This document shows, piece after piece, positions 3 to 64,000 of a DNA stretch of 64,000 nucleotides; position 1 is the first letter of the stretch, and each line of letters begins with the position of its first letter. A program made the translations under genes and the position numbers. The notes under the pieces are model-generated. The model ran no database searches. It saw only the letters and a list, made by a program, of their open reading frames with translations, and was not told where the DNA came from. The stretch lies in IMG/VR virus record IMGVR_UViG_3300025305_003938, positions 16,439 through 80,438 of that record; one strand, 5' to 3'. Source of the DNA: a virus.

Positions 3-662
3 CACGATCCTAGGCCGACAACGAACGAAGAGGGGTTTATGACCGCCGAACAAGAGGCGGAACTTGAAGCTCTTGCAGCGTCGATTGTCTCGTCTGAAAT
101 AGCGCAAAGAAAAATGGCAGACGAGGCCGCGGCCGAGGGACATTCTCCGGAAGAATATTTGGAATATCTTCGAAACCACTATGGCGATGAAAGTTTCGTC
201 ATTCAATATAAGGATTTACTGTCCGACGAAGACGAACTTCGTGCAGAGAACAAAATTAGTATTTCGCACGCACAACTAAAAAGTATTATTTTAGAGGAAC
301 TAGAAGAGACTAAGCTGCTTCGTTCTTTATACGGGACGCATGTTGATCTTGGCAAAGTTAAGGTTCCTCATCGCGGTTCCAAATCCGCTCCCACTATTCC
401 AGTATATGATGAAGATGGAAAAGAACATTATGTAAGCTATGATAGTATTACATATGATGACGGGAAAAAAGAAGGCTTATCAAACCAAATTAAGCAAAGA
501 AGATTAGAAAGACAAAAATTAGAAGAAGAGGGAACCGCTATAGCTGGTATTGAAGCTTTGGCCTCACGTATGCGCAGCGACATTGAGAGCGTAGCTAAAG
601 AGGCGAAAATAACGACAGCGGCGTTATTATCACTTATTAGTCAAGAACTGACACAAAAATAA
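3..662 (+). CDS. Internal-protein-like gene with KEEL-type motif, probably 5'-partial
   Basis: Function unknown. The frame is open to the left edge and the upstream residues look coding (DPRPTTNEEGF), so the true start may lie outside the window; the first ATG is at 39. If 39 is the start the product has 207 residues, and an upstream gene could end by ATGA overlap at 42. The protein is acidic and helix-rich. About residues 73-95 counted from ATG 39 it carries ISISHAQLKSIILEELEE, an internal copy of the leader found at the N-termini of the next genes. That links it to the same family of candidate capsid-targeted proteins. The C-terminal third is rich in charged residues and probably coiled coil. 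The family assignment is inference. Confidence 0.7.
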   Translation, partial: HDPRPTTNEEGFMTAEQEAELEALAASIVSSEIAQRKMADEAAAEGHSPEEYLEYLRNHYGDESFVIQYKDLLSDEDELRAENKISISHAQLKSIILEELEETKLLRSLYGTHVDLGKVKVPHRGSKSAPTIPVYDEDGKEHYVSYDSITYDDGKKEGLSNQIKQRRLERQKLEEEGTAIAGIEALASRMRSDIESVAKEAKITTAALLSLISQELTQK

Positions 663-675
663 AGGAACATATATC

Positions 676-816
676 ATGAAAGAATTACTAAAAGACGCAC
701 TAGACTTAGCAAGACGACTAGTCTTATTGCAGCAGCCTAGAGAAGCTTATGTTGTACTAGTTGCAACTGGCCTATCTGGCTTTATTGCCGGCCTTATTGT
801 CGCAGGGACCTTGTAG
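676..816 (+). CDS. Small single-pass membrane protein (46 aa)
   Basis: Unrecognised. It starts at ATG 676 after a good ribosome site (AAAGGAA, about 8 bases upstream), directly behind the preceding stop. The first ~22 residues are charged (MKELLKDALDLARRL...). Residues ~25-45 form one hydrophobic helix rich in Gly, Ala, Val and Ile, ending in GTL, so a single inner-membrane span is likely. The next gene begins 8 bases after its stop, so the two are probably cotranscribed. Function cannot be inferred. Confidence 0.6.
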   Translation: MKELLKDALDLARRLVLLQQPREAYVVLVATGLSGFIAGLIVAGTL

Positions 817-823
817 AAAAAAA

Positions 824-1315
824 ATGAAAATCACCAAACAAGAGCTGAAAGAAATTATCAAGGAAGAACTTGCTAGTACATTAGTCGTACAAGAAGCCAT
901 GTCTGAGCTTCGATCAAAATGGTTCAAGATACAGAGTCAATCTGATCGCGACCCCAATAGGCGCTCCGAGTATCTGGTCGCGCTGCAGGCGGAGAAGCTA
1001 ATTAGACTAATAGAAGAACATTCAGAGTTTGAGAATAAATATAATACGATGATGGGTCGCCTCGATAGGCTAGAAGAATCAGATCTAAAAGCCGAAGCCA
1101 TCAGCGATGTTCAGGGGTATCTTGCTTCTGTTAAGAAAGAAGAGATTTCGGAAGGTTGGGGTCAGAAAACCACTACCGCACAGGTTGATCAAGGAATCCG
1201 AAAAGGGAAGATAATATCAGGAGTAAAACGAATTGTATTAGATAAGAGCACTCCGGAAAATACCCTTGTAGGGTTAGAGACATGGATTCGTGGAATCGAA
1301 GGAGAATTAAAATGA
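824..1315 (+). CDS. KITK-leader protein, candidate capsid-targeted internal protein
   Basis: A 163-residue protein of unknown function. A longer in-frame start at 761 would lie inside the preceding gene. ATG 824 is chosen because it opens with MKITKQELKEIIKEEL, the leader shared by the following genes. Downstream the protein is charged and helical, without cysteines, and probably coiled coil. T4 internal proteins carry a short helical capsid-targeting sequence removed by the prohead protease after (L/I)xE. This leader is similar in length and character, and a Glu-Ala site (VVQE-A) follows it. That role is inferred, not shown. The stop overlaps the next start (ATGA). Confidence 0.75.
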   Translation: MKITKQELKEIIKEELASTLVVQEAMSELRSKWFKIQSQSDRDPNRRSEYLVALQAEKLIRLIEEHSEFENKYNTMMGRLDRLEESDLKAEAISDVQGYLASVKKEEISEGWGQKTTTAQVDQGIRKGKIISGVKRIVLDKSTPENTLVGLETWIRGIEGELK

Positions 1316-46929: not shown

Positions 46930-47593
46930 AAATTTATATTTTACCAAAGATCACGAACTAGCGATCATTGAATATACAAAAACTCCGTCAAGAGCTAAGA
47001 GATCAGAGTTGTATATCGAGTGGATTCAGCCGGCCTTTGATCAAATGGTAGACAAAATTATTTATACTTACCGGTTTGGTAATCTGCCAAACATTGAGTA
47101 CCTTAAGCAAGATTGCAAGATCTGGTTAACCACCATTTTAGATAAATATGATCCAAGCAAAGGATCGAAGGCGTTCTCATACTTTTCAGTTGTTACAAAA
47201 AACTGGTTTATTCATAAAGTAAAAAAGAACAACACTCGGGCCCGTAGAGAAGTCTTTCTAGAAGATATAACTAGCGAAAGAGACGTTGAGAAGATCAGCG
47301 AAGAGTTGAGTTATATTAGAGAAAGGCAAATGAAAGAGTTCTGGTTGCACTTTTACCATGAAATGAACACGTGGCACAGCGCAAACCTCAAGCCGAATGA
47401 ACGAAAAGTTTTAGAAGCTATCCGAATTTTGTTTGAAAGTTCGGAAGATATTGAAATTTTCAATAAAAAGGCTATTTACTTATACTTACGAGAGCTTACA
47501 GGTCTTAACACCAAGCAGGTTGTTAACATACTTAACAAGTTACGAGCGAAATACAGGAATTTTAGGAACAAATGGGACGCGGGCGAGATTTAG
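46898..47593 (+). CDS. 55: T4 gp55-like late sigma factor
   Basis: 231 residues. KNLYFTKDHELAIIEYTKTP, IEWIQPAFDQMVDKIIYTYR and YDPSKGSKAFSYFSVVTKNW resemble gp55 homologues of marine T4-like phages, especially the KAFSYFSVV stretch. gp55 replaces host sigma at late promoters together with gp33 and the sliding clamp. That places this phage in the T4 late-transcription group. The start is basic and the ATG overlaps the previous gene. The C-terminal ~80 residues look like a sigma region 4-like helical part (NTKQVVNILNKLRAKYR). Confidence 0.85.
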   Translation: MPPKKRKKRTKNLYFTKDHELAIIEYTKTPSRAKRSELYIEWIQPAFDQMVDKIIYTYRFGNLPNIEYLKQDCKIWLTTILDKYDPSKGSKAFSYFSVVTKNWFIHKVKKNNTRARREVFLEDITSERDVEKISEELSYIRERQMKEFWLHFYHEMNTWHSANLKPNERKVLEAIRILFESSEDIEIFNKKAIYLYLRELTGLNTKQVVNILNKLRAKYRNFRNKWDAGEI

Positions 47594-47865
47594 AAGAGTA
47601 CATAGAGGAGATCACGAACAACGTGCGAGAAGATCGCGCAGTTGCTAAGGTCCTTCTCATTGAAGCAATGCATGAGATGAAAAGCTCCGATGTCGCGCGC
47701 AAAGATCTAGGGCCCTTGGCAGCAAAATACGTCGAGAACCTGCAGCGTTCCAACGAACAACTCGTTAAACTGTCGGCTATAATTCAGAGAAAAGACAACA
47801 AAAATACAGGCTTATCCGCGGAAGACAAATCAGACATATATGAGATGATCAAGGATAAGGAGTGA
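47572..47865 (+). CDS. Small helical protein after sigma factor (97 aa)
   Basis: It overlaps the gp55-like gene by 22 bases. The protein is acidic and all helical (RGRDLEEYIEEITNNVREDR, DLGPLAAKYVENLQRSNEQL). In T4-like genomes a gp33 co-activator of similar size is often adjacent to gp55, so gp33 is one candidate. I see no diagnostic motif, and in some phages this place holds a terminase or neck protein. Uncertain. Confidence 0.55.
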   Translation: MGRGRDLEEYIEEITNNVREDRAVAKVLLIEAMHEMKSSDVARKDLGPLAAKYVENLQRSNEQLVKLSAIIQRKDNKNTGLSAEDKSDIYEMIKDKE

Positions 47866-49091
47866 TGGGCGAGATAGAGCGTTTTGTAAGACTCTGGCCA
47901 AAAAACACAAACACTGGAGCAGAAAAAAACGCCATCAACACAAGGCAGCACGATGTTGCCAGAGCCGCAAGAAATCTTCTTAGTGAAGCCTCAACGTTAA
48001 ATATCACCAAGGGTGTTGTATTACATGAGGCGCTAGTACTGAAGGTTAAAGAGTATTCTCCACTTCGCGGCTCAGCACTAGATCCCGATATGGGATTTTT
48101 TGAAAATGTGCCACCAAACATAGAACTAAAATGTTTGGTTTTAACCGACCTACAGGCAGAAGCCGTCGAATTACCAAAGAACATTCCAGCTGCAGAGAAT
48201 TCAGCTGATGATTACTTGATCGAAAATTCTTTTCCATCTTTTATCGGCCGAGCTTTCGGAGAGCATGCCGTCGAGGTCGGCGATATTGTCATAGTTCAGG
48301 TAAGGAACCCGAACTCCAAAGACGGATATTACATTAAAAAAACAGGCAACAGATATACACCAGATACTGGAGGCCAACATACTAGCCCAGAAGAAGTACA
48401 CAGGAATTTAACTGCAGGGCCCGGGACCATGGGCAATCTTCTCGGCGCCGCCCCCCCTGTCGGTCGCCCCGATACCGTTTTAGTCTTTGGCGATAGCCAA
48501 ATACAGGGCGCTATCGGCCGAAGCTTAGAAAAACAGCTGCCAGAGCATGGCTGGACTATAGTCGGTGGCGGGCGCCTAGGGAAGACCGGCTCTCGACCCT
48601 CTTTCTGGGTTAAAAACGACGGCCTAAGCGCAGATCTTAGACAGAGACTACAAGCTCGCCCGGCGATAATAGTAATCAATCTTGGGGGCAACGGGCTTAG
48701 TGGCACTGAGAGTCTATTAAGCTTAATTGCCGAATTGTCCCCCTTATCGAAAGTTATTTGGCTTGGCCCCCCTCCTGCAGTAAAACCAACCCAAGAACCT
48801 TCAATCCATCAGCTAGTTTACGCGACACCGTGTCCGGATGAAACAGATGAGCAACGTTGCAATCGCTATTATCTTAAATACGCTGAAAAGAGAGAGGACT
48901 TGTCGATGAAACTCTTCGACAAGATCAGCTCCCGCGAATCCCAGCAGAATGTAATATCAATTAATGCCATCGCTGCATTCGCGCAATTAGGAATGGCTTC
49001 TTCTCCAGATGGTGTACATGTTGTTAATCCATGGGCAACTCGATATATTGAGAAGATAATAGAAATGCACATTGGCCCAGCGCCGGTTTAA
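47865..49091 (+). CDS. Tail-hub protein with C-terminal SGNH esterase
   Basis: 408 residues. The N-terminal ~175 residues (EIERFVRLWPKNTNTGAEKN, LDPDMGFFEN, IGRAFGEHAVEVGDIV) form an OB-like hub domain closely similar to that of the next gene. From ~200, VFGDSQIQGAIG is SGNH block I (GDS), VINLGGNG (~268) is block III and SPDGVHVVNP (~379) holds the catalytic Asp/His. SGNH hydrolases deacylate or deacetylate sugars, so this part could cleave O-acyl groups on capsule, LPS or peptidoglycan during entry. GTG 47862 or ATG 47865 are possible; ATG gives the better parallel with the paralogue. Confidence 0.8.
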   Translation: MGEIERFVRLWPKNTNTGAEKNAINTRQHDVARAARNLLSEASTLNITKGVVLHEALVLKVKEYSPLRGSALDPDMGFFENVPPNIELKCLVLTDLQAEAVELPKNIPAAENSADDYLIENSFPSFIGRAFGEHAVEVGDIVIVQVRNPNSKDGYYIKKTGNRYTPDTGGQHTSPEEVHRNLTAGPGTMGNLLGAAPPVGRPDTVLVFGDSQIQGAIGRSLEKQLPEHGWTIVGGGRLGKTGSRPSFWVKNDGLSADLRQRLQARPAIIVINLGGNGLSGTESLLSLIAELSPLSKVIWLGPPPAVKPTQEPSIHQLVYATPCPDETDEQRCNRYYLKYAEKREDLSMKLFDKISSRESQQNVISINAIAAFAQLGMASSPDGVHVVNPWATRYIEKIIEMHIGPAPV

Positions 49092-49138: not shown

Positions 49139-50461
49139 ATGACAAACGAAATTGAAAGATTTTATAGAACTTATAAAAAGAATGTTTCTACCGGGAACAC
49201 TCTGCCTGCTATTGATCAAAGACAGACTCGCGCCACTAGGCACCTTCGGGAATTAATAGAGAAACGATCTTCGCTCGATATAACAGAAGGCATACACGAG
49301 TATGACGCTTGGGTATTGAGAGTCGACCCGTGGTCACCTGACCCTGGAACGTCCCTAGACCCTGATATGGGGTTTTTTGAGAACGACGCAACTAACTTTA
49401 AAATTTACTGCGCGATACTAGACTCCCCAATAACTGATTGTTATGACCTGCCCGCCGCCGCCGAGCTTGGCTCTCCACCCGGTACCCCCGGCGGCATGAA
49501 AATAGAGAGCTTTCCTGAGTTTATCGGCCGAGTTTTTAATGGCACCGAAGGCTGGCCCGAGATCGGAGACGTTGTAAGGGTTACATTCAATGGCCAGGGT
49601 TTCACTCGGGGGTACTACCTAGGAAGAACTGGCGCCAAATACCTTCCGGGTGAAGGCGGTTCAATTTCGCCACCTCCGTCCGGACCTTTTGGTGCCCTTG
49701 GTTCGCAGGCGGGCATGATTGGCGGAGGTTCTTGTGTCGAAGGTACCGGCGCCGCCGGTTCTGTGCGCTTCACTTACAATGAGCTTAAGATCCTGCGTCC
49801 GCCCTTGCAAGAGCTTTTAGAATATATCGCCGCGCACGAATCTAGGGGTAACTATAACGCCGTTAATCGCGGCGTCGGCGGAGACACCAGGGGCGGCTCA
49901 AAACCTTTAATTGGCAAAGAACTGACTGAATTGACAATTGGAGAATTATTAAGTTATATGAAGGGCGGCTCGCGCGCCGCAGAGACTGGTGTCGGCGGAA
50001 AGACTGAAAAGCACCCCAATGGGACAGTCGGTTTCCTAGCAACAGGAAAATATCAAATGATCCCAGTAACGCTTCGAAGTTCAATATCTAGTGCAGGCGT
50101 GAGCGAGGGTGAACTCTATAATGTAGAAACTCAGGAGACTTTAGGTGTTTATTTATTATTAAAGAAACGGCCAAAATTGGGTAAATACCTCCTAGGCATC
50201 AGCAATGATGAGTGCGGCGCCGCCCAATCGGCAGCATTAGAATGGGCATCTCTACCGCTACAGTATGCTCGTTCGAACGGCTGTCAACGAGGCTATAGCG
50301 CATATTGTGTAGGTGGAGCAAATGCAACAGGGAAATTATCCCGCAGCCCCGAGGAAGTGATTTCAGTACTTCGTTCCGCTCGATCCAAAGTATTACAAAA
50401 TTCTAGTTCAAGACAATTAATAGCTAGCAAGGGCTATGAGATACAGGAGGCGGTTGTATAA
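49139..50461 (+). CDS. Tail-hub protein with C-terminal muramidase-like domain
   Basis: 440 residues, paralogous to the preceding gene over its N-terminal ~165 residues (EIERFYRTYKKNVSTGNT; LDPDMGFFENDATNF; FIGRVF...GDVV). A Ser/Pro/Gly linker follows. Residues ~225-400 look like a lysozyme-type domain: LLEYIAAHESRGNYNAVNRG with the catalytic Glu, and GFLATGKYQMIPVTL (~298-312). It resembles T4 gp5, which carries a lysozyme on an OB hub domain. It would cut peptidoglycan locally on DNA injection. A 47-base gap precedes it. Confidence 0.82.
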   Translation: MTNEIERFYRTYKKNVSTGNTLPAIDQRQTRATRHLRELIEKRSSLDITEGIHEYDAWVLRVDPWSPDPGTSLDPDMGFFENDATNFKIYCAILDSPITDCYDLPAAAELGSPPGTPGGMKIESFPEFIGRVFNGTEGWPEIGDVVRVTFNGQGFTRGYYLGRTGAKYLPGEGGSISPPPSGPFGALGSQAGMIGGGSCVEGTGAAGSVRFTYNELKILRPPLQELLEYIAAHESRGNYNAVNRGVGGDTRGGSKPLIGKELTELTIGELLSYMKGGSRAAETGVGGKTEKHPNGTVGFLATGKYQMIPVTLRSSISSAGVSEGELYNVETQETLGVYLLLKKRPKLGKYLLGISNDECGAAQSAALEWASLPLQYARSNGCQRGYSAYCVGGANATGKLSRSPEEVISVLRSARSKVLQNSSSRQLIASKGYEIQEAVV

Positions 50462-51454: not shown

Positions 51455-54400
51455 ATGACAAAAAGAATGCCAAACAGTAGATGGAGCCTAAAAGAGCTTA
51501 ATAAACCGTACGAAGAAGACGGTTTGTATAAAATTGTTGTACGTTCTGATAACAGAACAAAAGACGGTATGTTGGTCGATTATGCGTCCACCGAGGTTCT
51601 TTTAAAAGCAATTGAACTCGCATATGATTACTATGGGAAATTAGATATAGGCCCGCGGGCAATATCTCCAATAATAACAACGGAGTCTGCAATTGCGGGA
51701 CAGTTTTCCCCTCGTCTTACTGTACAGGACTTTTTTGTAGACGGCCGCCCCAACTCGGCTGCAAAATTGTTGGTTACTTTCGACAAAGGTGCCATGGACG
51801 CATATCCGGAGATCCAACCCGCTATATTACCGACAGATGTGCAGCGACATATCTCGACCCTTTCTTTAGGGCAGAACATAAAGAAGCTTAAAGGACTTTT
51901 TACTGATTATCACAATACTGCAAAGTTCTTTGATGGGAAGATTAGCCCTCACGTTAATTTTCTAAAAGAACATCAAAGGCTTGAACTGTGGTACGAAGCT
52001 CTAACCGATATGGTAGAGATGAACGGCTATAAAATAAGAGAAGATGAAGATGACACGATCATATTAACGCTAAGCTCTAATTATGAGCTGGTTTATGCAG
52101 AGATGCTGCAGTCCGGAATCGACAGGCCACTGACAAGGGGATTTAAATACTTTAAATCGAAGACTGTTTTAGGAAACCCAAGGACAAACGCCTTAGCGCT
52201 AAATGTAAAAGAGATGATGTCAATCCGTAAGAGGCCCCCTTCTTGGAGCCAGTTCTTACAAGACTATATAATCTCTGGCAAAGAAGACGCAACAATCAAG
52301 ATTATGCACTCTGGGCGCCCCAGGACTGACAAGATGTCAGAAATTCTAGCAGATATAGCTAAGAACGAAAACAAACTATTCCAGTCTGCGAAAGCTTCAG
52401 AAGAAGAGAAAGCCCGAATCCGCGAAGACATTGCCACTGGAAAGATAATGTTTAACGAAGCGGCAAGCGAAAAAGAAGAGAATATTCAACAAAGCTTAAG
52501 CGCCCTAGCTGAGAAGATGAGGAAAGTAAACAGCGCGAAAAAACTGGTTAGCGAGGTCATAATGAAATATGGCATCGACAACTTGATTAGTGCCGGCCTT
52601 GAGTGTTTGATGCTTAGAACTGGGATTGATATTCCAGATCTTCCAGATATTCCCGGTATATCTCCGTTCGAAAAACCAACTCCGCCCAAAGAGTTTAAAC
52701 TTCCAAAATTTCCAACTGAACTACCAACATTCGATCCTACAGTACTCATGGCCCGCGGCATAAAGGAGGCTCTTAAAGGCGCCCTCGATGGAGCGATCAA
52801 AGCCATGATAAGTGCTGTCGCCGATATCATCACCGATCTATGTGCTGACACAAACTACGGAGAGACAGAGCCGATATCTCTTGCCGTAGCTGGAAATTTA
52901 AGCCCCATCGAAACAGGTAAAGGTCCGGGCGCCCTGGACTCCTGCTATCAAAACTATTCCTTGACGACTGGCGAAGGGACCGTGCTCATAGATGCAGTCT
53001 CAGATGTCCTATCTCCAATTGAAGTGTGTGATCTGTTGAATATGAGTCCGTCTTCTAGCGTTCTAGAGACGATAACGGATATTGTTGAGCAACAGAATCT
53101 AAAAATGAATTTCATGACAGATGAGGATATTATCGATTTCTTCGGCTGCTTGGGAGATTTGATTGATCCAAGCTATTGCGATGCAATATATAATCCTCCA
53201 ATTTTGCCATCTGACGTAGATCCATGCTTGTTCGAAGATCAGCTCGTAGATGCATTGAATGACACTGACTTATTTAATGATCTAAACGATCTGCTGGACT
53301 TAATAAATAACAATGAACAAATATTGGATCCGATTGACATATGCGCCACAGGAATAGTTCCACCATTTAGTGGCATGCCCACTCTCGTTCATTCGCTGGG
53401 TTCTGCCCTCGATGCATCCCTCATGCCCGCGCAGACTTCATTCATTAACGATGTTAGTGGCATAAAGAGTTTATATCTCATAGTTGATCCAAAACAGCCA
53501 AATGCAGAATTAATAGAAGAACTTATCGCCGCGGAAGCAATAAAGGAACAAGACGACGAAGACGAACGCGAACGCAGAATGGGACATCTAAACAACTTTT
53601 TAGCAATAGATGCCTTCGCCGGCCAAGAAGATATAGCAAACGTCACTAGGCTTATCGAAGCCGGCAACGCGGCCATAATGGCCAGCGCGCAATACAGCGT
53701 TGTATCTGATTTCAAGAGGAAATTAGAAAGGATTGAAACAGATATTATAACTCCATTTGACGCTTCTGTTTTAAATATAGAAGATTGGACTTTCTCCGTG
53801 AATTCTGGATCAAAGAAGATCCACTATGGCGCCCCCGATATGCTTCTTTTGGAAGACACTATAGACTCAGAGAATTCTCTGCCTGTCAATGCTAGTGCTC
53901 TAGACTTCAGCACACAAGCTTCGCCATCTGTGCTTAAGCAGCGCGACGCTACGTCTAGAGACTTCTCTAATATCATCCACGATGCAATTGCCACCCTCGC
54001 TTCGGCGCCGGCTAATAACGCCGATGTCACGGCTGATTTGTCAAATAAACAATACTTTAACTTAGTTTTGTCAATGTTGAGGTCTGCAGCCCATGGCATA
54101 ACAAAATCTCCCTTGTTTGAGTCGGACAACTTCAGAAAGTTCGCACTGGTCCCAGTTCCGTGTCAAGATGGAACAGAGCTAAACTCCGGAGATCTTCTAG
54201 ATTTGGAGAACATAAAAAACAGCGCTCTACAAGATTTCTTTCAAGGCACTTGTTTAGATGGTGAATTTGAAGTTGGCCCGGTCGAAGATGCAATGCTTTT
54301 TGCAACTACAAACGTGTACATCCAAGTTTATGTTATAGAACAGTTAATAAAGAACCTGTTCTTATTTAATGTTTATGGAACGGCCGAAATCTTATCTGAT

Positions 54401-56878
54401 CCAATGTTGGTCCAACAGATGGTTCGCGATATCAAAAGTGGGTTCTCTATGGAAGCAGAGAGAATATCCCCGGAAGACCCAGAATCTGTTCAACCATCTT
54501 TGCATACCACAATCGAAGAATTGAGCATAATATACGTCAGAAAATTGATTGCTGCTCCAATTGAAGGTCAGATTCCGGATCTAATAAATGAGGGTGAGTT
54601 CATACAAATGGCCCCCGAAAATGTTACTGCAGACTTCGCCTTAGAGTACATTGTACAAAAGAGATTAATCGACGCATCGGAGACTATAGGAACGATATTA
54701 TCATCGGGCGCCGTTGGTAGTTTCGGTGCTCAATACTTAGCTTATGGCATACCAACATGTGATCTGTGGATGCCCGCCACGGAGCCAACAGAGGATCATC
54801 CCACCTTGCGCACCACCTCAGGGGGCCAAAACACTGAAGGATTGACTTACAAATTTTTGAAGCACGATCCGGTTAACTCCATGGATCCAGAGCAGGCCCC
54901 CGACATCTATACAAATATCGGCTTTGACGGTGACATTGCCGACTATATATCGGACAAGGGAGCCCTCGCCAACGAGAGGTATGTTACATTCGATTTCGAC
55001 AGTGCCGCTTTTGACGCTCTAAGTCCATTCGAACAACTCCTAACCGAGACTTTAATTAGCGTGAATATTCCTGCAGAACATATCAAGCAGACTGGGAATA
55101 TAAAAAGATATACTACCTCTTTTGATGAGTTTACGAACCTACTCAGAATGGCGAACTATTTCCACGCAGGGCCCGGCCAAGGTCTAACCGTCAATGATAT
55201 GTTCGAAAATTTACCTCCAATTACTTTAAAGGCCCCGAACGCTAATGGCATTTCTACCAAACAAATTAGATTAACACAAGATAACTACGAACAGCTCAGG
55301 TTTATGTCAAACCTTATCTCTGATCGATATGACGGCGGAGCCCGCGTCGGCGGCCTTCGGGTATTAGATCCCGACGAAATCCAATATCAGGCCTTCGATA
55401 TGGCTGAAGAATTGGGCATACCTGAATCATTCTGGAGTACTCCTCGCATCGACTGGGTGGCGCCAAAACTCATCGACTGGCCATGGTGGGGTTCAGACAA
55501 CCCCGGTCCGGCCCATGACTGGCCTGCCTCATGGAGTAATTATAATTTAGAAAATGGCGAAGGGGACAACGAAGCCCCGCAAAGAATATATCTAACACCA
55601 CCGATTGACAGCGCGTATGAATACCCCAGCGGATGGCCAATCTATCCGAGTAAATTTGTTTATAAATCAGGAGTGAACGATCCAGCCGAAATAGATCCTG
55701 ACGCTTCACAGCCCGCCGGTTTAAACTCATTTTGGCGGTCTGTTGAAGACTTCCCAGATTTCTTAAGGCACATCACGATGTCTCAAATAGAAGATATACT
55801 GACCGCCGGCGGAGCTGCTTCGACTACTAATATACTTACTGTAGGTGAGCCACCGCCTGTGCCATTAGCTTTACTCTCTATCTTTGAGAACATAAAAATT
55901 GGTACAAGGTTGGTGTACTACACGGGATATCGAACTTTCGATGATCTATATAATAGCGGCTATTTCAATCTATACGCAGCTGCAACTCCAGAAGAGCAGG
56001 AAACTAAATGGATCGAAGATAGAATAGGGCTGCCCATCAAAGGCCGCGGCCCAAACTACGTATTCCCAATTGATCTAGGTGTAAAATCTGAAATTGGGAT
56101 CCTGTCAAATCTGACATCCACTGTTTCAAGCCCCGGGTCATTCATTCACACATCTTTTGAGAATTTGAAAAAAGACTTGTACGAGGGCATGACCGCGACA
56201 ACTGCGTACAGAAACTTATTCGTTTTACCCGGACTTGAACGCGAAAATGCGATCTTACCTGCAAAACAAGTGATTGCTTTTCTGGCCCTGCTGGGTCAGG
56301 CCGTCAACAGCGACAAAGCTACTGAAATTAATAAGATTTTTGATGATACGAAACTTAGTTTAAGGTTCGTATTAAGGGCTCTGCTAGCCGGAAATGACTT
56401 CGCATATGAGGATCCGGAAAACAGGACATCTGCACAGGCAGCTCGCGATGCTGTGTTGAACATTACTGGCGCCGGCGCCGCGCCATTCGCACAGATGGGG
56501 GCATCTTTTATTATTAAAATGCTGATTGAGGCTCCGAAAATGATCCTCAAGGGTCTAGCGGAATTGGTAGATCCGCACGTTGTTATAGGAAACATGATAA
56601 AGAATATATCAGGCACCGCGTTGACACAAATACCATCTAGCTTACCGTTCGAAGAATTGTTAGATTTGATACAAGGTCAGATTGACCGACAGGCAGAATC
56701 TGACCTTATACCCCCGCCCCTGGTGCCCCAAGTTAGAAAGACTGGAATAGATCTTGTTGGCAAACTTCCATTGCTATTTTTGATACCGCCGACGCCGCTT
56801 GGGCTAGCATATATTCTATTGAACATGAATCTGGAAGACTTAATACCTCTACCTGATTGCGAAACCGAGGAAGAATAG
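51455..56878 (+). CDS. Very large virion/baseplate protein (1807 aa)
   Basis: One uninterrupted frame of 1807 residues, the longest complete gene in the window. The N-terminal ~330 residues have alpha/beta character (SLKELNKPYEEDGLYKIVVR). Later parts include helical and disordered segments, a Pro-rich stretch (~400) and a region rich in Gly-Ala-Pro (~1360-1380). Repeated hydrophobic helices occur near the C-terminus (FIIKMLIEAPKMILKGLAEL). No enzyme motif was seen. It lies between hub and wedge genes, so a baseplate, tail-tip or ejected internal protein is likely. A tape measure seems less likely because it lacks the long coiled-coil pattern. Confidence 0.68.
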   Translation: MTKRMPNSRWSLKELNKPYEEDGLYKIVVRSDNRTKDGMLVDYASTEVLLKAIELAYDYYGKLDIGPRAISPIITTESAIAGQFSPRLTVQDFFVDGRPNSAAKLLVTFDKGAMDAYPEIQPAILPTDVQRHISTLSLGQNIKKLKGLFTDYHNTAKFFDGKISPHVNFLKEHQRLELWYEALTDMVEMNGYKIREDEDDTIILTLSSNYELVYAEMLQSGIDRPLTRGFKYFKSKTVLGNPRTNALALNVKEMMSIRKRPPSWSQFLQDYIISGKEDATIKIMHSGRPRTDKMSEILADIAKNENKLFQSAKASEEEKARIREDIATGKIMFNEAASEKEENIQQSLSALAEKMRKVNSAKKLVSEVIMKYGIDNLISAGLECLMLRTGIDIPDLPDIPGISPFEKPTPPKEFKLPKFPTELPTFDPTVLMARGIKEALKGALDGAIKAMISAVADIITDLCADTNYGETEPISLAVAGNLSPIETGKGPGALDSCYQNYSLTTGEGTVLIDAVSDVLSPIEVCDLLNMSPSSSVLETITDIVEQQNLKMNFMTDEDIIDFFGCLGDLIDPSYCDAIYNPPILPSDVDPCLFEDQLVDALNDTDLFNDLNDLLDLINNNEQILDPIDICATGIVPPFSGMPTLVHSLGSALDASLMPAQTSFINDVSGIKSLYLIVDPKQPNAELIEELIAAEAIKEQDDEDERERRMGHLNNFLAIDAFAGQEDIANVTRLIEAGNAAIMASAQYSVVSDFKRKLERIETDIITPFDASVLNIEDWTFSVNSGSKKIHYGAPDMLLLEDTIDSENSLPVNASALDFSTQASPSVLKQRDATSRDFSNIIHDAIATLASAPANNADVTADLSNKQYFNLVLSMLRSAAHGITKSPLFESDNFRKFALVPVPCQDGTELNSGDLLDLENIKNSALQDFFQGTCLDGEFEVGPVEDAMLFATTNVYIQVYVIEQLIKNLFLFNVYGTAEILSDPMLVQQMVRDIKSGFSMEAERISPEDPESVQPSLHTTIEELSIIYVRKLIAAPIEGQIPDLINEGEFIQMAPENVTADFALEYIVQKRLIDASETIGTILSSGAVGSFGAQYLAYGIPTCDLWMPATEPTEDHPTLRTTSGGQNTEGLTYKFLKHDPVNSMDPEQAPDIYTNIGFDGDIADYISDKGALANERYVTFDFDSAAFDALSPFEQLLTETLISVNIPAEHIKQTGNIKRYTTSFDEFTNLLRMANYFHAGPGQGLTVNDMFENLPPITLKAPNANGISTKQIRLTQDNYEQLRFMSNLISDRYDGGARVGGLRVLDPDEIQYQAFDMAEELGIPESFWSTPRIDWVAPKLIDWPWWGSDNPGPAHDWPASWSNYNLENGEGDNEAPQRIYLTPPIDSAYEYPSGWPIYPSKFVYKSGVNDPAEIDPDASQPAGLNSFWRSVEDFPDFLRHITMSQIEDILTAGGAASTTNILTVGEPPPVPLALLSIFENIKIGTRLVYYTGYRTFDDLYNSGYFNLYAAATPEEQETKWIEDRIGLPIKGRGPNYVFPIDLGVKSEIGILSNLTSTVSSPGSFIHTSFENLKKDLYEGMTATTAYRNLFVLPGLERENAILPAKQVIAFLALLGQAVNSDKATEINKIFDDTKLSLRFVLRALLAGNDFAYEDPENRTSAQAARDAVLNITGAGAAPFAQMGASFIIKMLIEAPKMILKGLAELVDPHVVIGNMIKNISGTALTQIPSSLPFEELLDLIQGQIDRQAESDLIPPPLVPQVRKTGIDLVGKLPLLFLIPPTPLGLAYILLNMNLEDLIPLPDCETEEE

Positions 56879-56919
56879 GAGAATATTTAAACCTTCAACT
56901 AAATATAACAGATAAAGAT

Positions 56920-57315
56920 ATGAGCGGACTGTCACCAAAATTTCCATTAAGTCTTGACACTGGGGATATTAATTATAAACTTAATAAAACCTACAAGGAG
57001 CTTATTGCGCAAAATTTAAAAAATTTGTTGCTAACATCTCCTGGCGAACGCGTCATGGAACCACGATTTGGCGCCGGCCTCCGGAGGTATTTTTTTGAAC
57101 CAATGCTTCCGGAAACCTTCATGGAAATAAAAGAAAGTATTTTCGAACAAGTGCAGGTGTATATGCCGTTTATAGAAATAATAGAGGTTGGCTTCCATGA
57201 ATCTGACGATATATCGGTGAATCCAAACTTCCTCTCAGTGACTCTCAAATATGCAATAACTCCACTGCAAGAGACGGATGTTATTGTTTTAGAAAACAGC
57301 TTTAGTGAATTTTAG
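56920..57315 (+). CDS. 25: gp25-like baseplate wedge protein
   Basis: 131 residues. The typical start MSGLSPKFPLSLDTGDINYK and the LTSPGERVMEPRFGAGLRRY motif (~residues 40-60) are hallmarks of gp25/GpW-type wedge proteins, which carry a lysozyme-like fold and help sheath assembly. ATG 56920 is chosen; the longer frame from TTG 56857 overlaps the previous gene and lacks the usual start. The next wedge gene follows 11 bases on. Confidence 0.88.
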   Translation: MSGLSPKFPLSLDTGDINYKLNKTYKELIAQNLKNLLLTSPGERVMEPRFGAGLRRYFFEPMLPETFMEIKESIFEQVQVYMPFIEIIEVGFHESDDISVNPNFLSVTLKYAITPLQETDVIVLENSFSEF

Positions 57316-57326
57316 GAATATATTAC

Positions 57327-59123
57327 ATGGCCAAAAAAATTAAATCGATTGATTATACGAGCAGAGACTTCGAATCCATTAAACAGGATTTGATGAACTA
57401 TGTAAAAAAGTACTACCCCGACACGTTTAAAGATTTTAACGAAGCCGGCTTTGGTTCTTTGATGCTTGACAGTGTGGCCTATGTTGGTGACATGCTTTCT
57501 TTCTATTTGGACTATCAAGCAAACGAGAGCTTCCTAACGACCGCCATGGAATATAACAACGTTGTGAAACATGGCCGCCAATTGGGCTTCAAATATCCCG
57601 GCGTCCCCTCCTCTTCTGGAATTGTCTCGATTTATATTACAGTTCCCGCCAACCCAGATGGAACAGGCCCGGATATGTCCTATGTGCCAACTCTAATAAA
57701 GGGGACTAACTTTGCTTCTGCAAACGGCGGCATCTTTACCTTAATGGAAGATGTTTATTTCGGAAATGAAAACAACGAGATTGTAGTTTCAAGCGTCAAT
57801 TCTTCTACGGGCGCCCCCGCATATTACGCAATAAAAGCGAAAGGTCTAGCAATATCCGGCCAGCTCTCTTCTCAGGAAGAGGAAGTTGGCAATTTCGAAA
57901 AATTCTTAAGAATAGGAATTAAGAACGTTAACGTCACAGAGATAGTATCTTGCGTTGATTCAGAGGGGCATGAATATTTTGAAGTAGATCATCTGTCACA
58001 GAACGTTGTGTACAAGGCAGTTAGGAATAACAATTCGTTCAGGAAATCCACCCCATCAATTCTTAAAGCGGTTCCAGTACCAAGAAGGTTCGTTTTAGAG
58101 AAATCTCCATCCCTAGCCTATCTACAATTTGGCTACGGCAGCGACTCTGAACTAACAAACGCTAGTGTTGTTGATCCGAGCAATATTGTCATGAATATAC
58201 ATGGTAGAGACTATTCAGTTGATGAGGGGTTTGATCCCACCAAGCTCACATCGACAGACAAATTTGGAATATCTCCGTCTAATACCACTCTTACAATTCT
58301 TTATAGAAGCAATTCTGTTGAAGACGTTAACGCCGGCGTCGGTTCAATTAATAAGGCCGTCGCACCCCTCTTCAAATTCACAAACCAGGGCGCCCTTGAT
58401 GCGGCCAAAAGGAATGTTGTACGTTCTTCATTAGAAGTGTTGAACGAAGAAGCCTTCGTGGGAGACGTTGAACTCCCAACAGCAGACGAGTTGAAACAAA
58501 GGATGTTCAGCCATTTCGCCTCACAAAACAGAGCGGTGACTGCAGAAGATTACAAGTCTATGACATATTCAATGCCGGCAAAATTTGGAGCAGTCAGGAG
58601 ATGTTCGGTTTCTAGAGACTTCGACTCTTTTAAAAGAAACTTGAATTTGTATATCATATCCGAGGATAATGATAAAAAATTAACCCTAGCCAACGAAACA
58701 ATTAAAAATAACCTTAAAACTTGGCTAAATCGGTATAAAATGATTAATGACACAGTTGACATTTTAGATGCTAGGATCGTTAACTTTGGAATCAAATACA
58801 TGATAGTCGCAGACTATGAAGAAAACAAGTTTACCGTTTTGAATAGAGCAACCGCAGCATTAAGAGAATTCTTCCTTAGAAACAACTATGATATCGGGGA
58901 GCCCATTTATATTACAGACATTTATAAAGCCTTACAGAAGGTCAAAGGGGTTGTAGATGTGGTGGATGTTATTATTATGCAGAAGCGCGGCGGAGTTTAT
59001 TCGAACTCAACATATGATTTCCAATCAGCCGTTTCAAACGACGGAAGGTCGATTATGGCAGATGAGAACGTTATATTTGAAATGAAATATCGAAATACAG
59101 ATATCATAGGAAGCGTTTCGTAA
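57327..59123 (+). CDS. 6: gp6-like baseplate wedge protein (baseplate J)
   Basis: 598 residues. IDYTSRDFESIKQDLMNYV and DSVAYVGDMLSFYLDYQANE (~residues 49-68) are the N-terminal signature of the gp6/baseplate J family. HFASQNRAVTAEDYKSMTYS and the C-terminal VKGVVDVVDVIIMQKRGG are also typical. gp6 forms the wedge ring that links hub and tail fibres in T4. It shares its last base with the next start. Confidence 0.92.
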   Translation: MAKKIKSIDYTSRDFESIKQDLMNYVKKYYPDTFKDFNEAGFGSLMLDSVAYVGDMLSFYLDYQANESFLTTAMEYNNVVKHGRQLGFKYPGVPSSSGIVSIYITVPANPDGTGPDMSYVPTLIKGTNFASANGGIFTLMEDVYFGNENNEIVVSSVNSSTGAPAYYAIKAKGLAISGQLSSQEEEVGNFEKFLRIGIKNVNVTEIVSCVDSEGHEYFEVDHLSQNVVYKAVRNNNSFRKSTPSILKAVPVPRRFVLEKSPSLAYLQFGYGSDSELTNASVVDPSNIVMNIHGRDYSVDEGFDPTKLTSTDKFGISPSNTTLTILYRSNSVEDVNAGVGSINKAVAPLFKFTNQGALDAAKRNVVRSSLEVLNEEAFVGDVELPTADELKQRMFSHFASQNRAVTAEDYKSMTYSMPAKFGAVRRCSVSRDFDSFKRNLNLYIISEDNDKKLTLANETIKNNLKTWLNRYKMINDTVDILDARIVNFGIKYMIVADYEENKFTVLNRATAALREFFLRNNYDIGEPIYITDIYKALQKVKGVVDVVDVIIMQKRGGVYSNSTYDFQSAVSNDGRSIMADENVIFEMKYRNTDIIGSVS

Positions 59124-60754
59124 TGGCTATCAAAAGATATAAAGCAAATAAAGATACGACAATCTCAAATGCGTATGACTTTTCTCTGCTACCCAGGAAT
59201 AGGGCCACTGGCTCAAACATGGGCGCCGCCGATGTATTAGAAGTATTCTCAATTTATGGCCAAGTCTCCTCTTCGGGCAAGCAAGAGGCTGTTGGTATTT
59301 CCTCAGAGTTATCAAGAGTATTAGTTGGCTTCCCGGTCAGTGGATCCACAGAATCTATCGGCGCCGACAGAAATTCTGGCAAGATCCCTGTATCCGGAAA
59401 CGTGAAATTCTTTTTACGAATGTTCAACGCTAAACACTCATATACAACACCAAGAAACATTAAATTGGTGGTTGCTGCAATCTCTTCAAGTGCAAATTGG
59501 GAAGAGGGCACCGGAGTAGACATTGACGAATATAAAGATAAAACACATGGAATCGAAGGTGCCAATTGGATAAACTATGCATCCAATCAAGCTTGGGACC
59601 GAGCCGGCGGCACGTTCTACATTGACAGAACCTCCTCCTATAATGCTACTTTGGAAAAGGGCGACGAGGATCTAGAGGTCGATGTCACCTCTATAGTCGA
59701 GTACTGGCTTAAGCCCGAGGGCGACGGACAGCGCCGAGAGGACCGCGGCTTTGCGGTCTTCCTCACATCAAGCCAAGAGGCTTACCACTCCGCGTCAAAG
59801 GGCTATAACCTGAGTCTATTTCAGGGCCAAGGAGCAACGGGTTCGATTATCCATAATCCAGCCGGCGCCAAAAGATCGTATTATACAAAGAAGTTTTTTG
59901 CAAGAACTTCTGAATTCTTCTTTAAACAGCCCGTGATCGAAGCGCGCTGGGACAGTACAGTTAAAGACAGAAGGGGTGACTGTCACTATAGTAGCTCCAT
60001 GGCTACCATGCAGGACAATTTAAACACCATATATCTCTACAACTACGTTCGTGGAAAACTTCAGAATATCCCCGAAGCGGGCACTGGCCGGATATTCGTG
60101 ACCCTGTATTCAGGTTCCGCTAACAATAACTCTCCATCAGTCAACACTATCAGTTTACCTCAGGGTGGTGGCGTTCCCACGGCAGCAAACACAGTAATCA
60201 CTGGCGGCTATGTATCGACCGGTGTGTATTCTGCCTCGTTTGCAATCACGGCCGGCGTAAATCCCCCAACTAGAGTCTTTGATGTGTGGCACAATGGCGC
60301 TCTGGCTCAGCATGAATTTTGGACAGGTAGTATCAATGTTAAGTCCTTTGGGACATACACACATGCTCCAAGTTTCCAATACGTCACTGCGATGCCGAAT
60401 CTTAAATCGAAGTATTCAAAAACAGAGACAGCGAGGTTCAGGCTTTATGTGCGAGACCAAAACTGGAATCCAACAATTTACACGAAAGCTACCAACCGGC
60501 CCGATAATACTATCATTGAAAGTGGATCATACAAGATTATGCGTCTATCAGATAACACGAACGTAATTCAATACGGCACGGGCTCGCAAAGACACACACA
60601 CTTATCCTTCGATGTATCAGGAAACTACTTTGATTTAGATGTCGATCTTCTACAGGAAGATTATGCATATGGAATCAAGCTAGCGTACTATAACGACTCT
60701 ATCGGTGGCTGGGTAGAACAACCGGAAATATTTAAGTTTAGAGTCGAGAGCTAA
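59123..60754 (+). CDS. Baseplate/fibre protein with DNRLRE-like domain
   Basis: 543 residues. The N-terminal ~220 residues have the pattern of DNRLRE-type adhesion domains: SRVLVGFPVSG, FLRMFNAKHSYTTP, SSANWEEGTGVDIDE (W-x-EGTG) and VDVTSIVEYWL then GFAVFLTSSQE. The C-terminal part is Ser/Gly/Thr-rich and beta-like (RLYVRDQNWNPTIYTKATNR). This lies where T4 has gp7/gp8-type wedge proteins. Adhesive or structural roles both fit. ATG 59123 overlaps the gp6-like stop. Confidence 0.72.
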   Translation: MAIKRYKANKDTTISNAYDFSLLPRNRATGSNMGAADVLEVFSIYGQVSSSGKQEAVGISSELSRVLVGFPVSGSTESIGADRNSGKIPVSGNVKFFLRMFNAKHSYTTPRNIKLVVAAISSSANWEEGTGVDIDEYKDKTHGIEGANWINYASNQAWDRAGGTFYIDRTSSYNATLEKGDEDLEVDVTSIVEYWLKPEGDGQRREDRGFAVFLTSSQEAYHSASKGYNLSLFQGQGATGSIIHNPAGAKRSYYTKKFFARTSEFFFKQPVIEARWDSTVKDRRGDCHYSSSMATMQDNLNTIYLYNYVRGKLQNIPEAGTGRIFVTLYSGSANNNSPSVNTISLPQGGGVPTAANTVITGGYVSTGVYSASFAITAGVNPPTRVFDVWHNGALAQHEFWTGSINVKSFGTYTHAPSFQYVTAMPNLKSKYSKTETARFRLYVRDQNWNPTIYTKATNRPDNTIIESGSYKIMRLSDNTNVIQYGTGSQRHTHLSFDVSGNYFDLDVDLLQEDYAYGIKLAYYNDSIGGWVEQPEIFKFRVES

Positions 60755-63700
60755 TGAGCATTAAGCATCTTTTTGATAAGGTACATATTGATAAGAGTAC
60801 CGCCGGCACGAACTCGGACCAACTTGGTGGCGAGGTCGAATCTGAGCGTTTTCATAGTGCCAAGATCGCAAAAGATGATAGAATCATCCCGCAGGTTGAT
60901 TTCTCAAAACCAGAAAATTTTGTATTTTATGGTTCGGCTGAACGGTACTACGATGACGCAATAAAGAACATTTATCAAACTTACCCGTATGATGGCTCGC
61001 TATACGAGAAGCTAGACTGGGAGAACAGCGCTTCTTATATTGATCTATATGTTTTTGAGAACCTATACCCCAGAACGAACGGTTACATAAGGTTTGATCG
61101 CGACGGCGCCGATAGTTCTACTAGTATCGTATCTGATTACGGTATCTTCAACAGTGCAGATCAGGAATACATCACAATAAAGGGTGGTCCCGGCATAGGC
61201 GGCGGCCCACAGAATGCCGGCGCAAATATATACAACACGGGCTCCTTCCAAGAATCTAATTTAAAATTAGATCCAGTTGAGGGCACTACAGTTGAATTCT
61301 GGTTAAAGAAGAAAGCATTTAACACTTCTAGGACTAAAAAGGAAGTACTTTTCGATCTCTGGAACGGAGAACATTCTTCAAGTTCTGGATATGGTCGCCT
61401 AACAATCGAACTAACTGGCGCAACATATAGTCAGGCCACTACAACTTCAGGTAGATCTTTCCGCGTCACTTATCAGTCAGGCAACCTCGCCGACGCCGGC
61501 GCACCAACACACGGGTTCCAAAATGAATCGATTGGTACAGTTGACACTCTAACCTCCTCCGTTGCAGACAACACGTGGCACCACTATGCATTCTCTTTCT
61601 TATCTGCATCCAATGGCGTAAAGACCAGACTATACGTCGATGGCGATTTAAATGAAGAAAAAATTCTAGGTTCGAACGGTGCACGAGAGATAACCGGCTC
61701 TTTAATTGCGCGCATCGGCGCCCTGCGAACAGCCCCATCTGGCGCTGTTGGGGCCCACGGATCAACAGCTTTAGACGGCGCCGGCAAGCTATCAGGCTCC
61801 TTGGATGAATTTAGATACTGGAAGACTCAGCGCTCATCGAAAGAGATAGGTCGCCACTGGTTCACGCAAGTTGGCGGAGGCACCAACACAGATACTGCCA
61901 ATACAAAGTTGGGCGTCTATTACAAATTCAATGAGGGGATTCTAGGAAATAGCACCGACGCCACGGTTTTAGATTATTCTGGTAGGGTGACGAATGGAGC
62001 TTGGACGGGTTACATCGCCGGCGCAAGAGAAACTGGTTCCGCTATCAACGAGGCTACATCTACAAACCAAGAATTCTTAGATCCGATTCTTTATAGAAAT
62101 CACTCATCTGTAAATTCTTTAATTTCAAGGATGCGACTTTCCGGCTCTTCGTTCGACCATACAAACACTACATCTCTCTTTAGTTCCCTGCCCAGTTGGA
62201 TGCAGGAAGAAGATCAGAAATCTGGAGACCTCCTCTTAGATTTGACTCAGATAATGTCAAGTTACTTTGACTCTGTACAATTACAGATATCAGAACTTCC
62301 AAAATTGAAGGACGTTGAATACATCAGCGGTTCTTCGAAACCAAACAACTTCAACAGCACCTTATTGAGTTCAATGGGCTTCTTGGCTCCAGAAATATTT
62401 ATTGATGCGGAGATTATTGAAAACCTAGCTGCACGAAGCGAAGACAGAAAATACGAAAAGTCCCTAGAGCACACCAAAAATCTTATATATAAGAACATTT
62501 ACAACAATTTATCTTACATTTATAAATCGAAGGGTACCGAGAAGTCTTTTAGGAACTTGATTCGCTGCTTTGGCATCGATGATGATATAATCAAGCTCAG
62601 TACATACGGAAATAATGTAACTCACAAGTTTAGAAACAACTATAGAGTTGTATCGACACCTAAGAAGTATGTCAATTTTAATGACAACGGAAACTTCGAA
62701 GGCACTGTGTTCCAGATGTCTTCTAGTAAGAATTCTAATAGTTTGCCTTATATCGACGCGGCAAAACAATTGACTGGCGGCTATGGATTCACACTACAGA
62801 CTGAAGTAGTCCTTCCAAAGAAAGCAAACACGGGCGACTCTTTCTATTCAAGACAGAGATACACTGACCTGACTGCTTCTCTGTTTGGCGTACATACTGC
62901 CAGAACCTCATCGACAAATACATCAAACACCCAATGGGCCGAACCGGACGTTGTAAACTTCCAAGTACATGCTGTACGAGATGAAGCAGAATCAGACAAC
63001 GTACGTTTTGTTTTGACCGGATCCGGCGACGGGTATTTTCCCGAACTATCAAGTAGCTTGTTTGAGGGAGCATATGACAACACTAAATGGAACTTAGCAG
63101 TAAGAGTTAAGCCGGCCAAATTTCCACATGTCGACTCTATCCATGGTACGACCGGTTCCAACTCCGGTGCAGATATAAATTACAGTAGGTATTACACAGT
63201 TGAACTTTATGGCAATCAGACTGATGCAGGATCCATTCAGAACGAATTTACTGTTACTGGGAACATTGATCTGCAGCAGCTTAGTCCCGGGACATCTGCA
63301 GATCAGTTCATATACGGCGCCCGCCGTATATATATGGGCGCCCATAGAACAAACTTTACTGGCGCAGTGTTGCAAAGGACTGACGCCAAAATTTCTTCGT
63401 GCCGTTTCTGGCTAGATTACTTAGATGATGAAACACTGAGGGCTCATGCTCGCGATGTGAACAACCATGGTGCCAAGAATCCATACAGAAATGCCTACCT
63501 TTTTGAAGGAAAATCAATATATAATGATTCTAGAGAACTAGTCGGCCGCGGCCGCAACTTCGAAGTGCCGCAGATTGAGACGCTGGCACTTAACTGGGAC
63601 TTCAATCAAGTCACTGGCTCCAACGCTGCCGGCGAATTCAACGTTGTAGATTTCTCCTCCGGTTCGGTTGAGAAGAAAAAGAGGTACGGCTGGATAGGCG

Positions 63701-64000
63701 ATATCACAAAGGCCCAATATACAGCCCGGGGCTATGGGTTTGCAACCTCTTCAATAAAGGTGATTGACAAAGAGTATATCACATCAGCTCGTCAGAACAT
63801 GCCAGAAAACATGCAGTCTGAAGATATGATCTCTGTTTTGTCGACGCAAGATGACATACAGTTCACTAGAGACACGCGACCAATAAATCACTTCTTTGCT
63901 TTCGAAAAGAGCATGTATCAGACAATTTCTGAAGAAATGCTCAATATATTTGCTAGTATAGTCGATTTTAACAACTTAATTGGTGAACCGGTTAACAAAT
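60754..64000 (+). CDS. Large LamG-containing virion protein, 3'-partial
   Basis: Starts at ATG 60754 (TAATG overlap) and runs without a stop to the window end, at least 1082 residues. The segment TWHHYAFSFLSASNGVKTRL then YVDGDLNEE and SLDEFRYWKT (~residues 270-365) is a concanavalin/LamG sugar-binding fold. The middle (~500-650) has many Asn/Ser/Tyr residues and a helical part (SLEHTKNLIYKNIYNNLSYI). A later region (~680-900) looks like a second beta sandwich. It is probably a baseplate or fibre protein that contacts host glycans. The end is outside the window. Confidence 0.78.
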   Translation, partial: MSIKHLFDKVHIDKSTAGTNSDQLGGEVESERFHSAKIAKDDRIIPQVDFSKPENFVFYGSAERYYDDAIKNIYQTYPYDGSLYEKLDWENSASYIDLYVFENLYPRTNGYIRFDRDGADSSTSIVSDYGIFNSADQEYITIKGGPGIGGGPQNAGANIYNTGSFQESNLKLDPVEGTTVEFWLKKKAFNTSRTKKEVLFDLWNGEHSSSSGYGRLTIELTGATYSQATTTSGRSFRVTYQSGNLADAGAPTHGFQNESIGTVDTLTSSVADNTWHHYAFSFLSASNGVKTRLYVDGDLNEEKILGSNGAREITGSLIARIGALRTAPSGAVGAHGSTALDGAGKLSGSLDEFRYWKTQRSSKEIGRHWFTQVGGGTNTDTANTKLGVYYKFNEGILGNSTDATVLDYSGRVTNGAWTGYIAGARETGSAINEATSTNQEFLDPILYRNHSSVNSLISRMRLSGSSFDHTNTTSLFSSLPSWMQEEDQKSGDLLLDLTQIMSSYFDSVQLQISELPKLKDVEYISGSSKPNNFNSTLLSSMGFLAPEIFIDAEIIENLAARSEDRKYEKSLEHTKNLIYKNIYNNLSYIYKSKGTEKSFRNLIRCFGIDDDIIKLSTYGNNVTHKFRNNYRVVSTPKKYVNFNDNGNFEGTVFQMSSSKNSNSLPYIDAAKQLTGGYGFTLQTEVVLPKKANTGDSFYSRQRYTDLTASLFGVHTARTSSTNTSNTQWAEPDVVNFQVHAVRDEAESDNVRFVLTGSGDGYFPELSSSLFEGAYDNTKWNLAVRVKPAKFPHVDSIHGTTGSNSGADINYSRYYTVELYGNQTDAGSIQNEFTVTGNIDLQQLSPGTSADQFIYGARRIYMGAHRTNFTGAVLQRTDAKISSCRFWLDYLDDETLRAHARDVNNHGAKNPYRNAYLFEGKSIYNDSRELVGRGRNFEVPQIETLALNWDFNQVTGSNAAGEFNVVDFSSGSVEKKKRYGWIGDITKAQYTARGYGFATSSIKVIDKEYITSARQNMPENMQSEDMISVLSTQDDIQFTRDTRPINHFFAFEKSMYQTISEEMLNIFASIVDFNNLIGEPVNK

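Follow-up and report, generated by a model that had tools for sequence, protein, structure and literature searches.

The 64,000-nucleotide stretch analysed here (the window) spans positions 16,439 to 80,438 of the IMG/VR virus record IMGVR_UViG_3300025305_003938 and ends in two genes located directly behind genes for gp25-like and gp6/J-like baseplate proteins (Table 1). The first, P1, has an N-terminal domain with the predicted fold of a carbohydrate-binding module (CBM) of the DNRLRE type followed by two immunoglobulin-like (Ig-like) domains, and the second, a giant protein, has a laminin G/pentraxin-like domain (LamG-A) ahead of a conserved core with possible ties to the wedge family of P2 gpI and T4 gp7. 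Among related giants, LamG modules beyond the first vary in number and position.

Table 1. Genes and domains at the end of the window (aa, amino acids; ORF, open reading frame; rmsd, root-mean-square deviation)
Feature	Position	Strand	Basis or remark
gp25-like sheath initiator/wedge gene	56857..57315	+	PF04965 9.1e-13; phrog_261 3.5e-16; ORF start TTG, true start perhaps further in
gp6/J-like baseplate wedge gene	57327..59123	+	phrog_6 2.1e-22
P1, 543 aa, CBM (DNRLRE) domain and two Ig-like domains	59123..60754	+	Fold model; relatives; gene order
P1 residues 1-277, CBM/DNRLRE (CBM96-like) fold	59123..59953	+	8wab_B, Z 18.1, rmsd 2.6
P1 residues 282-543, two Ig-like beta-sandwich domains	59966..60751	+	Fold search, Z 7 to 9.2
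Giant, wedge-like protein, first 1082 codons	60754..64000	+	Open at window end, which is the end of the virus record
LamG-A, giant residues 108-439, LamG/pentraxin-like	61075..62070	+	Fold; Laminin_G_3 over cut-off; family profile in 30/30 complete giants
Conserved core with KGT motif, possibly gpI/gp7-like, giant residues 440-625	62071..62628	+	hhalign; shared with immuto, Mel-JY01 and LR756508
KGT motif of giant core	62530-62538	+	Core alignment
Possible second LamG-like sandwich (LamG-B), giant residues 630-915	62641..63498	+	Few two-domain laminin/neurexin chains

Two genes with sugar-binding-type folds behind gp25 and gp6

The order of these genes is rigid. An IMG/VR search returned 410 stretches encoding a relative of P1, of which the best 80 loci were kept (some of these not distinct). 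Between gp6 and the start of P1 the distance is 0-2 bases in 79 of the 80 loci (1722 bases in the remaining one), and gp25 lies upstream of P1 in all 73 loci with room for it. Of the 79 loci with space downstream of P1, 78 have the start of the giant gene at a distance of -9 to 18 bases behind P1. At the remaining locus, L025, the distance is 1653 bases and two extra ORFs (285 and 255 aa; L025:11442-13056) separate P1 and the giant, the sole such gap among the 79 loci; the 255-aa product includes the residues HEFTH, which we take to be an HExxH-like stretch as in zinc peptidases. The gp6/J-like protein of the window is 32.5% identical to that of Microcystis phage Mel-JY01 and 30.0% identical to that of Flavobacterium phage immuto, each over 99%. 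Because gp25 and gp6 are present, we infer that the phage is contractile-tailed. A first-pass annotation of this DNA had placed the two genes where T4 has its wedge proteins, which is right by gene order, with T4 gp7 and gp8 coming after gp6, and a baseplate setting for both genes is supported at the level of sequence and synteny.

P1 was modelled with AlphaFold from 57 sequences (mean predicted local distance difference test (pLDDT), 77.2; predicted template modelling score, 0.51), this family having been drawn from the 80 loci and twelve other loci and collapsed at 92%. In the model, residues 1-277 have the beta-sandwich fold of a solved chondroitin-sulfate-binding CBM (8wab_B), with 174 residues aligned of a 176-residue chain at 15% identity, while the second-best row of the VIA fold search reached only Z 9.8; neighbours of the model include pro-TGFb2 (8fxs, Z 9.8). 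The P1 of the window has no match to the DNRLRE family (Pfam, E ≤ 1; NCBIfam, E ≤ 0.05), and the two records nearest the window (G001 and G002) have no DNRLRE match. Within the family, the NCBIfam DNRLRE_dom profile matches 22 of the 57 members at E ≤ 0.05 (best, 3.7e-7). Over 45 related records, a DNRLRE profile matches 30 at E ≤ 0.01, with one above the cut-off, and 32 of 33 matches fall within P1-size frames (the other within a giant-size frame). The P1 homologue of Mel-JY01 matches Pfam CBM96 at 5.5e-5, below the cut-off. For CBM96, binding to alginate is reported for a DNRLRE-type domain in an alginate lyase (PMC9971899); P1 shares the fold type and, in its relatives, a weak family signature, whereas P1 lies beside baseplate genes; the likeness drawn here is one of fold and family.

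The C-terminal half of P1 has mostly macroglobulin and complement domains as fold neighbours; a functional reading of these matches was rejected, as the Ig-like fold is common. Family matches to AcrF2, alpha-amylase, sialidase and the TGFb propeptide also turned up, none of which was read as function. A tblastn search of P1 against a phage-genome collection gave no match at E 1e-5, and a PHROGs search with P1 and the giant returned nothing usable. One 764-aa homologue of P1 (G042/L090; G042:C1:60248-61639) has a Laminin_G_3 match of 99.5 bits between two DNRLRE-matching pieces, such that a LamG is apparently nested in a loop of the CBM.

The giant is 3042 aa long in near-identical contigs (99.8-99.9% identity over the 1082 residues visible here) and 3316 aa in an 84% identical relative, so that the window shows about one third of it. 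Besides LamG-A, the giant has the wedge-like core (about residues 440-625) and about 2000 further residues. A model of the visible part (mean pLDDT, 72.5), for which the fold search probed mainly residues 108-441, assigns LamG-A to the concanavalin A-like/pentraxin fold, with closest neighbours in PAPP-A (Z 19.8; 222 aligned; rmsd 3.3), Limulus pentraxin (Z 18.8; 208 aligned; rmsd 2.8) and the putative carbohydrate-binding protein 4dqa of B. ovatus (Z 18.2; 210 aligned; rmsd 3.5). Laminin_G_3 matches the window's own record at 32.5 bits in a genome scan, above the cut-off of 27.6, and residues 175-365 in a whole-protein hmmscan at 26.8 bits (E 6.7e-6), just below it. Laminin_G_3 is a common domain, since 5 of 14 control genomes also match. 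The DNRLRE-like and LamG folds that the first-pass annotation had seen in these two genes are confirmed by the predicted models, structure prediction being among the checks that it had proposed. Both genes are present over the extent that it gave, but the window truncates the second, and each protein extends well beyond the domain named.

A second LamG-like domain may follow at about residues 630-915, as suggested by a few two-domain laminin/neurexin chains that align over residues 108..956 or 109..1008 of the model. Profile comparison gave no link between this region and LamG-A (hhalign probability 1.6%), and part of it is common to the giant of Mel-JY01 (domain E 5e-4). The best seven matches of the giant in BFVD are 27-43% identical, the sole named one being an uncharacterised protein of an uncultured marine virus; with this neighbour, and with a relative, immuto, that comes from the Baltic, the phage is probably marine.

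Constant and variable LamG modules among related giants

A total of 58 long giants were collected, 42 of them non-redundant, of which 20 were complete and 10 were completed by fetching; the resulting 30 (2506-4732 aa) were used for counting and the 12 incomplete ones excluded. A LamG-A family profile replaced seeding of phmmer with a single module, which found only the two copies of the query itself. LamG-A is present in all 30 complete giants, a figure that is partly by construction because the profile was seeded from LamG-A. An independent Pfam scan of 42 related records found Laminin_G_3 in every one at E ≤ 0.01 (40 above the cut-off), in one to six pieces each.

Eighteen of the complete giants have a single LamG and twelve have two to six (one extra match, in L218, is weak at 2e-3). 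The extra modules map to about five regions of the 3042-aa backbone, at approximately residues 1161-1198, 1408-1415, 1522-1575, 1685-1700 and 1742-1844, with region 1522-1575 holding an extra LamG in 11 of the 12 multi-LamG giants, and L224 has a further copy at LamG-A. The site labels were sorted by hand from BLAST pieces and their boundaries are approximate. The stretch that varies in relatives falls in the part of the giant beyond the end of the window.

Gain or loss of a module is visible within two close pairs. The protein of the window (L083) differs from L084 by a LamG insert of about 250 aa in the latter, between flanks that are 84% and 76% identical, and L220 and L223 differ in the presence of a LamG between flanks that are 90% and 87% identical. 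For many modules the nearest neighbour listed is no more than 25-45% identical, and for some the best match lies at another site. Near-identical modules (98% and 88%) occur in two of the multi-LamG giants, L217 and L226. No match to the reverse transcriptase of diversity-generating retroelements (PF00078) was found in 18 records, which may be fragments.

Possible relation of the giant to baseplate wedge proteins and proposed role of its lectin folds

The region between residues 436 and 645 of the giants contains a KxKGT motif in which the two lysines and the glycine are invariant and the threonine nearly so. Compared by hhalign with 13 proteins of the P2 gpI family, the core aligned precisely at this motif (score 31.7; P 5e-4; probability 31%), above the best of 100 column shuffles (18.7). 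These 13 sequences were drawn from P2 and twelve other phage records because the 80 gpI relatives retained from IMG/VR hardly differed (99-100% identity throughout). With 14 proteins of the T4 gp7 family (one homologue with a stop in the read frame having been dropped), the core aligned at STKGIEAS (score 27.3; probability 2.9%; best of 60 shuffles, 24.3). gp7 and gpI are regarded as counterparts, and the same profile comparison gave no link between those two families (probability 0.3%). P2 gpI and T4 gp7 resemble the giant in that their genes come soon after gp6/J and in the aligned KGT motif; they differ in size (176 aa and 1032 aa versus 3042 aa) and in that a P1 gene intervenes here. To our knowledge, and with no search made, neither gpI nor gp7 contains a LamG. 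Since T4 wedge genes follow gp6 and the motif is gpI/gp7-like, the giant is perhaps a wedge protein. A member of gpI/gp7 would be expected directly after gp6/J, where P1 stands instead, and for that reason the giant was not assigned to the family; the core is suggestive of a lead to this family, short of membership.

It is proposed here, with the chances seen as evenly divided, that P1 and the giant are components of the baseplate wedge, that the giant is a gpI/gp7-type wedge protein with inserted lectin folds and that the extra LamGs are exchangeable, low-affinity adhesins for glycans. Several observations weigh against this proposal. At the probabilities given above the gpI/gp7 link is weak, and a whole-giant profile has its best fit to gp7 in another place (residues 770-904; probability 0.9%). 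Tail_P2_I matches 2 of 35 cores (best E 0.18), where unrelated Pfam families score higher, and 2 of 45 records, none above the cut-off. Sequence searches of the PDB gave no matches at E ≤ 1 for queries A1 and A2 and unrelated matches only for A3 (best, 0.42), and in the model the core, for which gp7 membership would predict the (gp6)2-gp7 trifurcation fold, is of low confidence, with residues 518-626 mostly at pLDDT below 50. Further, fast evolution of the CBM and LamG-A was sought through the rate of non-synonymous change (dN) and pairwise identity and was not found. Measured against the 84% identical relative, P1 changes most slowly in its CBM (dN 0.063, versus 0.160 and 0.136 for the Ig-like domains) and LamG-A is slower than the core (0.091 versus 0.116; N-terminal helical part of the giant, 0.066). 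No omega is given for seven of the eight regions compared because synonymous changes were saturated in them. Across the family, the CBM is the most conserved domain of P1 (59.9% mean pairwise identity), and in the giant the corresponding values are 49.1% for the N-terminal part, 50.0% for LamG-A and 54.7% for the core, with the possible LamG-B the most divergent of the five regions compared (39.4%). A list of 50 fold matches for the giant, mostly LamG/pentraxin-type rows, contained no wedge protein, which excludes nothing.

The CBM and LamG-A thus appear fixed, and for these two domains of the window a structural role, or a ligand common to many hosts, would fit no worse than a part in setting host range. 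An explanation in which every CBM and LamG fold serves structure alone, with the beta-sandwiches providing subunit contacts in an enlarged baseplate without binding sugars, is possible though somewhat doubtful. It would account for domains that evolve no faster than the core or the Ig-like parts, for a LamG-A retained in every complete giant and for the rigid gene order, and the fold as such does not imply binding. A required contact would, however, hardly tolerate the presence and absence of extra LamGs within the two close pairs, and in Bacillus phage Vp4 a wedge protein with CBM folds binds cells. That protein, the wedge 3 protein Gp119 (831 aa, with CBM16- and xylanase-type CBM folds), is reported to decorate B. 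cereus cells as a green fluorescent protein fusion, while the sister homologue Gp177 of Deep-Blue, which is without these folds, does not (PMC11406892). The present proteins resemble it as folds set into a putative myophage wedge, and differ in having LamG/pentraxin and DNRLRE folds and, in the giants, 2.5-4.7 thousand aa and up to six LamGs; the two are likened by description only. On the pattern of gain and loss, the extra LamGs, whose number varies, are more plausible as candidate adhesins than the CBM and LamG-A.

Should the extra LamGs bind glycans, they could still be generic decorations that raise stickiness to particles or polysaccharide gels as opposed to host-specific adhesins, which is considered unlikely. 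The variable number of modules, and their frequently low identity to the nearest listed neighbour, would suit such a function, whereas modules in a protein that has gp7-like signals and is encoded two genes behind gp6 would be placed on the machine that meets the cell.

Homologues in other phages bear on whether the giant could instead be a fibre or spike protein that is merely encoded beside the wedge genes. The order of gp6, a P1 homologue and a giant homologue is kept in the cultured phages immuto and Mel-JY01 and in the 484-kb uncultured jumbo phage LR756508. Within a set of 41 proteins, a hidden Markov model of P1 recovered the homologues in Mel-JY01 (E 1.9e-28), immuto (9.4e-15) and LR756508 (1.7e-21), and a profile of the N-terminal third of the giant did likewise (3.7e-15, 2.6e-15 and 2.4e-13, respectively). 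These giants are 1265-1400 aa long and share the core, with no Laminin_G_3 match at E ≤ 0.1 and no match to the family LamG. In immuto (gp111/gp109) and Mel-JY01 (WWT39509/WWT39511), as in the window, a P1 homologue and the giant core lie behind gp25-gp6; unlike the window, the giants (1265 and 1336 aa, respectively) are without a LamG profile match and one extra gene, of 112 aa in immuto and 413 aa in Mel-JY01, stands between P1 and the giant. The weak sequence link to gpI/gp7 and the unusual size of the giant would agree with a fibre or spike. The shorter homologues, however, keep the core behind gp25-gp6-P1 even where LamG matches are missing, and immuto has separate tail fibre and tail spike genes annotated further downstream, which leaves a fibre or spike quite improbable.

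Under the proposed wedge assignment, P1 and the giant would sit in the baseplate wedge of a contractile-tailed phage, the giant serving as the gpI/gp7-type protein with lectin-fold domains inserted on exposed parts. The P1 CBM and LamG-A would be constant features that bind a widespread surface sugar or else tie wedge subunits to one another, and the extra LamG modules, carried on six wedges, would hold the baseplate on the host surface before the sheath contracts. More speculatively, and on present evidence rather doubtfully, a wedge with about five sockets for pentraxin-like LamGs, up to six lectins each and giants of up to 4700 aa could form a combinatorial ring for glycan recognition in the baseplate as opposed to the fibres. 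The first-pass annotation had suggested that the baseplate may itself bind host glycans, an interpretation that overall is partly supported.

There is precedent for several elements of this scheme. In AlgoCIS, a bacterial contractile injection system and no phage, carbohydrate-binding folds are likewise described in the baseplate, as two CBMs in the spike cage Alg11; they lie outside the gp7-like part, which belongs to Alg12 and is termed a hotspot of re-engineering (PMC8894135). In XM1 gp17, a 242-residue homologue of gp7, flexible parts are reported to take part in binding the tail spike (PMC10457771). Phage K8 is reported to bind core oligosaccharide by virtue of a variant of a putative wedge protein (PMC9887876), and Laminin G3 lectins are mentioned in a jumbo-phage review together with tail fibres and other components of the virion (PMC7824862). 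No description of this gene pair was recognised in the open-access literature, covered mainly as titles and abstracts. A lectin-bearing wedge is already known from Vp4 Gp119; the giant size and the plug-in LamG modules would make the present case a new form of one.

Binding of host sugars by the modules, if it occurs, would mean that a large group of uncultured phages recognises its hosts through the wedge ring as well as through tail fibres, and that this recognition changes as domains are gained and lost. Baseplate sequence could then help to predict host range, and the observations on Vp4 and AlgoCIS would extend to another lectin fold.

Neighbouring genes in the window

The first-pass annotation had viewed glycan binding by the baseplate as complementing SGNH and muramidase enzymes of the hub. 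The muramidase type has family matches, in a 440-aa protein (49139-50461) that fits a muramidase-type hub enzyme (phrog_37890, 6.1e-25; endolysin phrog_90, 1.5e-9), while the SGNH type has just one weak match, in a search that did not take the other SGNH families singly (PF13472 at 48483-48707 in the gene at 47862-49091; 16.2 bits, below the cut-off; E 5.3e-4 for one record). No usable family match was obtained for the 1807-aa protein encoded at 51455-56878, between the hub genes and gp25. Before the hub genes lies a possible late sigma factor (46898-47593; phrog_234, 1.5e-4), and further upstream are two consecutive glycosyltransferase-like genes (32178-35524; phrog_2170, 8.3e-25 and 6.4e-10).

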